In this document: piece after piece, positions 6,000-7,241 of the stretch | Numbering within the stretch: position 1 is the first letter of the stretch | How the letters are laid out: each line of letters starts with the position of its first letter | Assembly (NCBI GenBank): GCA_018240895.1 | Contig: JAFEEX010000024.1 | Coordinates: 1-37,662 of the forward strand | Source of the DNA: Pseudomonadota bacterium | Lineage (GTDB): Bacteria > Pseudomonadota > Alphaproteobacteria > Sphingomonadales > Sphingomonadaceae | Direction of reading: 5' to 3' | Length of the DNA: 37,662 nt | The notes under the pieces: model-generated | The model's database searches: none | The model's input: the letters and a program-made list of their open reading frames with translations, nothing else | What the model was told of the DNA's origin: nothing | Program-made: the position numbers and the translations under genes

Positions 6000-6032
6000 C
6001 ATTGCGCGAATGCGCCGGTAGAGGCGCACTCC

Positions 6033-6110
6033 ATGTCGATCATGCCGACCACGACCATTACCACCAAACCGACCGCCGCGGCGGGAACGGTTGTGGCGGT
6101 GCGTGGCTGA
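6033..6110 (+). CDS. Putative threonine/isoleucine leader peptide of asd
   Basis: 25-codon open frame with a good ribosome-binding site, AGAGG at 6020-6024, 8 bases before the ATG. The peptide contains 7 Thr and 2 Ile, including the run TTTITT coded by ACC ACG ACC ATT ACC ACC at 6048-6065. This composition is like the E. coli thrL leader, which has alternating Thr and Ile runs. The stop at 6108-6110 is 18 bases before a terminator-type hairpin, and asd (aspartate-semialdehyde dehydrogenase, on the Thr/Ile, Lys and Met route) starts 102 bases further on. The inference is classical attenuation: a ribosome stalled at the Thr/Ile codons when charged tRNA is scarce would let GGCGGG (6080-6085) pair with CCCGCC (6126-6131) and prevent the terminator. 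A start at 6042 (second ATG) is possible but lacks the spacing. The peptide itself probably has no function. Confidence 0.72.
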   Translation: MSIMPTTTITTKPTAAAGTVVAVRG

Positions 6111-6128
6111 CAGGCACCCGGACAACCC

Positions 6129-6154
6129 GCCCCGCAGCGAGCAGGCGGGGCTTT
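6129..6154 (+). terminator. Attenuator terminator hairpin upstream of asd
   Basis: GCCCCGC (6129-6135) pairs with GCGGGGC (6145-6151) around a 9-base loop and is followed by TTT. It lies between the leader peptide stop (6110) and the asd start (6213). The left flank CCCGCC (6126-6131) can alternatively pair with GGCGGG at 6080-6085 inside the leader, which would break the terminator. A further hairpin, GGTGC (6098-6102) with GCACC (6114-6118), covers the leader stop codon. Confidence 0.68.
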
Positions 6155-6212
6155 CCAAACCGGATCACGCAAACCTCGACCTGCTCTTTCGAATGACGAA
6201 GGAGTAAGCATC

Positions 6213-7241
6213 ATGGTTTCCCGTTTCGCCCCCGGGCAAAAGCTGAATGTCGGCGTGGTCGGCGCGACCGGTCTGGTCGGATCGATGATCCGCGAGATTC
6301 TGGCAGAGCGCAATTTTCCGGTCGCCAGCCTGCGCCTGTTCGCCTCGGCCCGCTCCGCAGGCAAGGTGCTGGACGGCGTGGTGGTGGAAGACGCCGCCAC
6401 TGCCGACTATGCCGGCCTTGATATCGTGCTGTTCTCTGCCGGGGGATCAACTTCAAAAGCGCTGGCGCCAAAGGTTGCCGCCGCCGGCGCGGTGGTGATC
6501 GACAATTCATCGGCCTGGCGTTCCGATCCGCAGGTTCCGTTGGTCGTTGCCGAAGTGAACGTCCATGCCCTCGCCGATTTGCCCAAGGGCATCGTCGCCA
6601 ACCCCAATTGCACCACCATGGCGGCCATGCCGGTGCTGAAGGTGCTGCACGACGAAGCGGGGCTGAACAAGCTGGTCGTCTCGACCTATCAGGCAGTTTC
6701 AGGCGGCGGGCTGGAAGGGATCGACGTGCTTGCGCGCCAGCTTGACCACGTTGGCGGCAAGGCGCGTGAACTGGCGGTGGGCGGGCATGACGCTGTGCTT
6801 CCCAAGGCGGAAAAGTGGGCCGTGCCGATTGCGCACAACGTCGTTCCCTTGAACTACGTCTATGCCGAGGATGGCTATACCGAGGAAGAGATCAAGCTGC
6901 GCGACGAAAGCCGCAAGATCCTTGAAATCGCGGACTTGCCAGTATCGGGAACCTGCGTGCGCGTGCCGGTTTTCACCGGCCATTCGCTGTCAATCAACGC
7001 CGCGTTCGATCGCCCGCTTAGCGCCGCACGCGCACTGGAATTGCTGAACGACGCGCCCGGCGTGGTGATCAGCGAAGTACCCAATCCGGTAGAGGCCACC
7101 GGGCAAGACCCGGTTTTTGTTGGCCGGGTGCGCAAGGATCCGACCGAAGCGAACGGCTTGGCGCTGTTCGTGGTGGGGGACAACCTGCGCAAGGGCGCGG
7201 CGCTGAATGCCGTGCAGATCGCCGAGGCGTTGTTGGGGTAA
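6213..7241 (+). CDS. asd: Aspartate-semialdehyde dehydrogenase
   Basis: 342-residue enzyme that reduces L-aspartyl-4-phosphate to L-aspartate 4-semialdehyde with NADPH, the branch-point intermediate for lysine/diaminopimelate, threonine, isoleucine and methionine. The N-terminal Rossmann motif is [10 protein letters not shown]. The catalytic cysteine is C133 in NPNCTT, and [10 protein letters not shown] and [10 protein letters not shown] are also typical of the family. The length is normal. The ATG at 6213 has AAGGAG (6199-6204) 8 bases upstream. The gene stands alone: a leader peptide and terminator-like hairpin precede it, and bdhA converges from the other strand. Regulation by threonine/isoleucine attenuation is inferred from that leader. 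Confidence 0.96.

Follow-up and report, generated by a model that had tools for sequence, protein, structure and literature searches.

A candidate Thr/Ile leader-peptide attenuator before a second asd paralog in sphingomonads, with a possible link to the asd Shine-Dalgarno sequence

Introduction

The thr leader (thrL) of Escherichia coli encodes a short leader peptide with a run of Thr and Ile codons, and its RNA alternates between an antiterminator and a terminator in front of an aspartate-family enzyme. Asd makes the intermediate at which the pathways to Lys/DAP, Met, Thr and Ile branch; Asn, unlike Thr, Ile, Lys and Met, is not formed downstream of it.

Several leaders described in other bacteria bear on such a system. 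The mRNA of the trpL attenuator of Sinorhizobium meliloti is described as beginning with the AUG of the leader, which is translated leaderless (PMC10117765). The same source describes SEP5 of S. meliloti, a small ORF that is translated and lies in the 5'-UTR of a gene for an 'aspartate dehydrogenase'; toward its end it has six codons for Thr and three for Lys. It is reported there as conserved only in Sinorhizobium and is proposed by the authors as a possible aspartate-pathway leader peptide (PMC10117765). Leaderless leader peptides, including a Thr leader before thrS, are reported for Streptomyces lividans (PMC8079986), and amino-acid-responsive leaders and T-boxes of actinobacteria are described in which a Shine-Dalgarno sequestor alternates with an anti-sequestor (PMC1262725, PMC3896937).

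The locus considered here lies on a contig of 37,662 nucleotides (JAFEEX010000024.1, the window) from a member of the Sphingomonadaceae, in which an original prediction had placed a Thr/Ile leader-peptide attenuator in front of asd. We propose that a ribosome-mediated attenuator, as judged from sequence comparison, very probably sets the expression of this gene, a second asd, according to the supply of charged tRNA-Thr and tRNA-Ile.

The leader in the window shares with thrL the Thr/Ile run, the antiterminator/terminator alternation and an aspartate-family target, and the Rfam model of thrL (RF00506, Thr_leader) aligns over its full length to 6028-6157, with 16.7 bits against a gathering threshold of 55 and an E value of 5.6. 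No Rfam model reaches its threshold on the window's copy, and T-box and lysine riboswitch models are absent from the eight Rfam matches that 5500-7400 gives at E up to 10. Whereas thrL controls thrABC, the leader in the window precedes a single asd, and it differs further in its probable leaderless start, in the additional pairings of a fifth strand with strand 4 (4:5) and with the Shine-Dalgarno sequence, and in the presence of Lys in most relatives. The trpL attenuator of S. meliloti (rnTrpL) is likewise alphaproteobacterial and has a described leaderless start, which is deduced here, but it serves trpE, in contrast to asd and Thr/Ile/Lys codons here. SEP5 resembles, by description and not by alignment, the Thr/Lys frames before asd in other alphaproteobacteria, and our guess is that its downstream gene is asd. 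The thrS leader of S. lividans is likewise described as a leaderless leader ORF with Thr, a start that is deduced for the window's, but it has only two Thr and an unclear terminator, and it belongs to another gene and phylum (PMC8079986). The actinobacterial sequestors are those of T-boxes or of a LEU element, as described, whereas a sequestor here would follow the terminator of a Thr/Ile attenuator. The original prediction had also suggested that an asd-specific Thr leader may be new. A search of an open-access library found no description of an asd leader of this kind apart from the related SEP5 remark, and an earlier prediction in a 2004 comparative paper on proteobacterial attenuators is possible. 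The underlying kind of attenuator is known, and we regard the probable leaderless start, the asd target and the fifth strand as what sets this variant apart.

Results

The putatively attenuated gene is a second asd

The leader element sits in the gap between gltX, which ends at 5964, and asd, which starts at 6213, and the gene 3' of asd is on the opposite strand (features are listed in Table 1). The leader does precede asd, as originally proposed, but this asd is a second paralog and not the only asd of the genome: another copy (G000:C37:41224-42213) is 51% identical to it. The window's type of asd was defined by matches with at least 70% identity; among 59 genomes of the genus 17 carry it, and among 149 of the family 9 do, its own genome included in both counts. 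The nearest named relative is Novosphingobium kunmingense (90%), and the window therefore probably belongs to Novosphingobium. Housekeeping-type asd was represented by 35 loci from the genus and family, own genome included, and no leader-like frame was found before any of the 34 in which the start could be located. A loose rule flagged Thr/Ile-rich frames before four of these 34 (L011, L014, L021 and L053), none of them leader-like.

Table 1. Positions in the window of the asd paralog and of the proposed elements of its leader.
Feature	Positions	Strand	Basis
-35 box of leader promoter, TTGCCA (TTTACA in most relatives)	5996..6001	+	place; conservation
-10 box TAGAGG, containing AGAGG	6019..6024	+	spacing conserved in relatives
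Leader peptide ORF MSIMPTTTITTKPTAAAGTVVAVRG, TGA stop included	6033..6110	+	open frame in the sequence; homologs in relatives
Putative regulatory Thr/Ile codons (TTTITT)	6048..6065	+	codon enrichment, stall folds, shuffles
Strand 1, AAACCGACCGCC, codons K-P-T-A	6066..6077	+	strand alignment, duplex test
Strand 2; GGCGGG 6080-6085 can pair with strand 3 (antiterminator) or strand 1	6078..6101	+	duplex tests
Strand 3; can pair with strand 2 (6126-6131 and upstream) or strand 4 (6129-6135)	6115..6135	+	duplex tests
Terminator loop and strand 4; GAGCAGG can pair with CCTGCTC of strand 5	6139..6150	+	duplex tests
Strand 4 of terminator hairpin, then TTTCC (weak U-tract)	6145..6151	+	duplex tests, T counts
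Strand 5	6174..6191	+	duplex tests, class loci
Segment 6: asd Shine-Dalgarno AGGAG 6200-6204 and flanks	6197..6206	+	fold models
asd paralog, the putatively regulated gene	6213..7241	+	NF011456 and TIGR01296, both above cut-off

The leader frame is conserved and enriched in Thr, Ile and Lys codons

The predicted 25-codon frame is present where stated, with 25 amino acids and a stop, 7 Thr and 2 Ile, including the run TTTITT. Considered by itself the window sequence is just moderately unusual: when the gltX-asd gap was shuffled 2000 times with dinucleotides preserved, an ORF of 10-40 codons with at least nine Thr plus Ile arose in 16 shuffles and a Thr/Ile run of at least six in one, and RNA folding gives z = -2.07, with 3 of 200 shuffles equally stable. 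Conservation across species is the stronger evidence. The genus and family set comprises 25 paralog loci, of which one (L045) is on a contig that begins at asd, and all of the 24 with readable upstream sequence, own genome included, have a homologous leader, a frame of 24-29 codons whose first half is rich in Thr and Ile and leads up to KPT or a near variant. Another 80 loci were available, 25 of which were examined, the remaining 55 being mostly from Streptomyces; such a frame was present in 21 of the 25, including Caulobacter, Asticcacaulis and Hyphomonas, with four of the 21 being copies or near-copies of loci counted before and three (L070, L071 and L076) deviating, and no leader was seen in the other four (L075, L077, L079 and L086). 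The working set of 41 leaders (24 plus 17 further ones) has start codons chosen by eye. The start, the Thr/Ile run and the hairpins, on whose conservation in relatives the original prediction had been staked, are all conserved, and the hairpins co-vary.

Of the 409 codons from codon 2 up to the KPT motif, 191 are for Thr or Ile in the leader frame, compared to 3 and 9 when the other frames are read. Counting the motif Lys, the 450 codons include 104 for Thr, 87 for Ile, 78 for Lys, 16 for Met and 2 for Asn, so that Thr (23%), Ile (19%) and Lys (17%) are above and Asn (0.4%) is below their frequencies in five genes of the window (4.4, 4.7, 3.4 and 2.7%, respectively), where the Lys count takes in an invariant Lys that is possibly kept for strand 1. 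Codon choice also differs from that of the five genes, with ATT:ATC at 59:28 in the leaders vs 27:88 and AAA:AAG at 51:27 vs 16:71. Lys is therefore the third enriched residue across the leader family, and charged tRNA-Lys is probably sensed as well in many relatives. The window's leader has a single Lys, which lies outside the modelled effective zone. Past the KPT motif the peptide is far more variable than within it, while the RNA strands retain their pairing.

In three loci (L071, L076 and L217) the leader-like frame is poor in Thr and lacks Ile, having Lys, Arg, Ala and Pro instead, and a hairpin of the GGCCCCG/CGGGGCC type accompanies it before the asd paralog; the amino acid that is sensed may differ in these cases.

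Strands 2:3 and 3:4 co-vary

Both RNA features of the original prediction are found in the window, namely the hairpin 6129-6135/6145-6151 followed by TTT and the complementarity of GGCGGG (6080-6085) with CCCGCC (6126-6131). RNAalifold on a MAFFT alignment yielded just 10 pairs and, judged by eye, subclades shift registers for 2:3, for which reason it was replaced by an own/swapped duplex test, in which the pairing of each strand with the partner of its own locus is compared to its pairing with partners permuted among loci. Because relatedness can inflate such tests, non-redundant representatives, control strand pairs and a second set of loci from the class were also used.

For the 41 leaders, the 2:3 duplex is -28.1 kcal/mol with own and -24.5 with swapped partners, and none of 20000 permutations is as good as the own pairs for either 2:3 or 3:4, whereas 2623 are for 1:2, which thus shows little co-variation; the control pairs 1:3, 1:4 and 2:4 gave 465, 484 and 1357, and 1:4 was also low in a separate run (206 of 5000). 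In this first test two loci (L038 and L066), for which the hairpin finder chose the wrong arms, were kept as such; their arms were set by hand for the 4:5 and representative tests, the stall folds and Shine-Dalgarno accessibility. With 16 representatives (<75% identity), 2:3, 3:4 and 4:5 each gave 0 of 5000, 1:2 gave 43 and the controls 799-2281, and the result is weaker and still holds for eight representatives (<70% identity; 34 for 2:3, 3 for 3:4, 0 for 4:5 and 58 for 1:2), a subset of two having no power. The terminator hairpin 3:4 is nearly invariant among the leaders, and it is followed by a short tract with a mean of 2.93 T in 8 nt compared to a background of 1.19. With codons enriched in frame and 2:3 and 3:4 co-varying, sequence comparison supports the proposal that asd is attenuated via a Thr/Ile leader.

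A stalled ribosome would favor read-through

To model stalling, a ribosome was placed at each codon in turn and the RNA that it leaves uncovered was folded, assuming 13 nt from the A-site to the ribosome edge. The median terminator probability is at most 0.06 with the A-site at positions up to the motif Lys, is 0.85 one codon later and reaches 0.99 or more from two codons later on; the corresponding means are 0.21-0.31, 0.61 and 0.94-0.99, and some leaders fail to switch in this model. In the window the predicted probability stays at 0.00-0.24 for the first five TTTITT codons, climbs to 0.61 with the last Thr and to 0.96 with the Lys, and is 0.65-1.00 later, which would place the Thr/Ile run at codons where a stall opens the gene. 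With strand 1 left unmasked, 2:3 still beats 1:2 at equilibrium, so that untranslated RNA would be expected to read through, and these modelled folds argue against 1:2 being a strong protector.

A fifth strand as an alternative partner for strand 4 or the asd Shine-Dalgarno region

The element seems to reach past 6151, up to the asd Shine-Dalgarno sequence. Within strand 5, 6174-6186 can pair with strand 4 and 6182-6191 with the asd Shine-Dalgarno region, the two overlapping at 6182-6186, and the predicted OFF state has segment 6 base-paired to strand 5. For 4:5, none of 20000 permutations matches the own pairs (z -7.2, n=41; z -4.9 with the 16 representatives), compared to 5460 for 2:5, 941 for the reversed strand and 18545 for the reverse complement. 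The same holds when only 7 nt of the terminator loop and the first 2 nt of strand 4 are used (0 of 20000; reversed control 4277), hence 4:5 is not a mere by-product of 3:4. The second set consisted of 14 of the 16 asd loci found in the class, leaving out L151 (a near-copy of L101/L138) and L163 (without strand 5), and was drawn with a model that ends at the terminator and so has strand 5 outside it. In this set, where L161 and L167 were segmented wrongly yet kept and start codons were hand-picked after the sequences had been seen, 2:3 and 3:4 each gave 0 of 20000, 4:5 gave 7 and the Shine-Dalgarno pairing 187, compared to 14184 and 15540 for the controls. We regard this co-variation as good evidence that 4:5 forms, and 4:5 may in turn affect asd translation. 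As strand 4 is fully transcribed ahead of strand 5, 4:5 presumably cannot serve the termination decision.

The mean predicted accessibility of the Shine-Dalgarno sequence is 0.20 in the 41 leader-bearing paralogs, compared to 0.50 in housekeeping asd (n=29, p 2.6e-7) and 0.39 in long ORFs (n=40, p 3.4e-4). Between the terminator and the stalled state the number of 4:5 pairs in the fold models grows from 0.6 to 4.7, and Shine-Dalgarno accessibility goes from 0.17 to 0.26 or, when more of the gene is included, from 0.17 to 0.20, with a rise of more than 0.05 in 9 of 41. The modelled value for the window is 0.00 in both states.

The leader probably starts without a ribosome-binding site

The original prediction had read AGAGG (6020-6024) as the ribosome-binding site of the leader. 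The motif is present, but this role is unlikely since it is part of TAGAGG, which lies 17 nt downstream of TTGCCA, and relatives keep TA at -10 spacing, many of them without a purine run; AGAGG is probably part of a -10 box. In a search for the best -35/-10 pair, scored with a pattern set after the sequences had been seen, the -10 box is 6-9 nt 5' of the leader start codon in 40 of 41 leaders, and 38 of the 41 have a spacer of 17 nt. With this spacing transcription would begin at or beside the start codon, and the leader is thus probably translated leaderless.

On the 5' side of the leader promoter, a segment at 5970-5989 (TTTCACGCTGCACTGCAACA) recurs slightly changed in four other loci (L034, L035, L041 and L064) and is possibly a protein-binding site.

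Related leaders in other Alphaproteobacteria

A covariance model has matches (E up to 0.01) in 42 of 385 alphaproteobacterial genomes, own genome included. The 29 other matched loci that were opened lie before asd (16), before thrS (6) or before neither (7); the last group (L165, L170, L172, L174, L176, L177 and L179, model R1) was taken as false matches. At least two Lys are present in all 16 asd leaders of the class vs one of seven thrS leaders, that of the window's genome included (Mann-Whitney p 0.00015), in a comparison of related sequences found by a model that was built from asd leaders, and the difference fits leaders that report what their gene serves.

The leaders before thrS that match the asd model (L162, L166, L168, L171, L175 and L178) are Thr-rich and come from other alphaproteobacteria, suggesting either a common origin of asd and thrS leaders or convergent strands. 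The genome of the window has a Thr-only frame (MTTQRAMASTTTTRVTPGLAAFA; L180) on G000:C24, 5' of thrS (67007-68746, minus strand), which alternatively begins at MASTTTT (MASTTTTR...) and is followed by GC-rich repeats before the threonyl-tRNA synthetase gene; this region is probably a second attenuator. No such leader was found in the 300 nt before the open frame of homoserine dehydrogenase in the same genome.

A rule-based census of 80 asd upstream regions was non-random, with 40 regions from genomes with more than one asd, for seven of which just the copy without an R1 match was taken, and 40 single copies in order of match score. It gave 19 matches, compared to 3 of 80 in the reverse complement and 17 of 800 shuffles, and 12 of the 19 are Thr/Ile/Lys leaders after removal of seven that, on visual inspection, are the C-terminal end of a gene lying upstream, which we take to resemble leuB. 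Among nine further paralogs of the class that are 66-72% identical to the window's gene, three have a clear leader, one a weak one and five none. Among the paralogs closest to the window's gene, six (L211, L213, L215, L217, L219 and L224) gave no match by the census rule; in L217 there is a weak leader-like frame and in L215 a single short frame that does not resemble the leader, whereas the rest have nothing. The five without a recognizable leader (all but L217) are 67-71% identical to the window's gene; paralog and leader are therefore separable, and beyond the sphingomonads the leader is not always tied to the window-type paralog.

Short Thr/Lys-rich frames, which mostly end near the codon run itself, precede single-copy asd in six other alphaproteobacterial loci (L260, L266, L270, L272, L275 and L283), perhaps representing a differently built asd leader of the SEP5 type.

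Discussion

The leader peptide, its codons and the helices 2:3, 3:4 and 4:5 are supported by comparison of relatives, from which we infer a leaderless start, a response to starvation and a degree of termination. In the mechanism that we propose, transcription would start at or next to the leader AUG and a ribosome would initiate on the leaderless mRNA. If it stalled at the Thr/Ile run it would cover strand 1, allowing 2:3 to pair, preventing 3:4 and leading to read-through into asd; if it ran on, the 3:4 terminator would form and transcription would end. In transcripts that escape, strand 5 would go to strand 4 in the read-through state or to the asd Shine-Dalgarno sequence in the terminator state, and the same stall decision may thereby be passed on to translation. 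The element would then be a six-segment relay alternating between 1:2-3:4-5:6, in which transcripts are terminated and the Shine-Dalgarno sequence is hidden in escapees, and 2:3-4:5, in which they are read through and the anti-Shine-Dalgarno is occupied. We consider the case for this six-segment arrangement evenly balanced, and much the same can be said of a relay from the stall to asd translation via strand 5.

A more conventional reading, in which strands 1-4 alone decide and neither 4:5 nor the Shine-Dalgarno hairpin has a regulatory role, is possible, although we lean against it. Pairings 2:3 and 3:4 are sufficient to explain control, and the Shine-Dalgarno sequence is mostly paired in both modelled states, fully so in the window, but such a reading leaves unaccounted for the co-variation of 4:5, which appears in the full set, in the representatives and in the second set and persists with seven loop nucleotides and two nucleotides of strand 4, in a helix that would come too late for the termination decision. 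Were the hairpins instead to act mainly on the asd Shine-Dalgarno sequence, with little termination at 3:4, the weak U-tract and the low accessibility relative to housekeeping asd and other long ORFs would be explained; this is unlikely, as 3:4 is nearly invariant with T enriched behind it, and the modelled change in accessibility is small.

An action of the leader RNA or peptide in trans, besides or instead of attenuation, has a precedent in rnTrpL/peTrpL of S. meliloti, an alphaproteobacterial attenuator RNA and peptide for which trans functions are described (PMC7298713, PMC10117765). Here the peptide after KPT is much more variable than the motif while the RNA strands keep pairing, making a role in trans improbable. 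That a chance small ORF lies next to chance hairpins in a GC-rich gap would agree with the shuffles of the window alone, in which 16 of 2000 reach the Thr plus Ile count and the fold z is modest, but it is scarcely credible given the conservation and co-variation across genera.

The aspartokinases of E. coli follow an isozyme logic. With an attenuated second Asd next to a housekeeping Asd that is free of the leader, sphingomonads would have a similar logic for this step, here exerted by RNA. The leaders seem to hold the signal in their codons, with Thr plus Lys or Ile for asd and Thr nearly alone for thrS, and since no Rfam model reached its threshold on the window's copy, a new Rfam family could be proposed from the leader alignment. 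If the relay via strand 5 holds, a leader-peptide attenuator with a weak terminator would be backed up at translation, such that one stalled ribosome would control both termination and translation of the gate enzyme of the aspartate pathway, and control of this kind would be spread over several groups of the Alphaproteobacteria.
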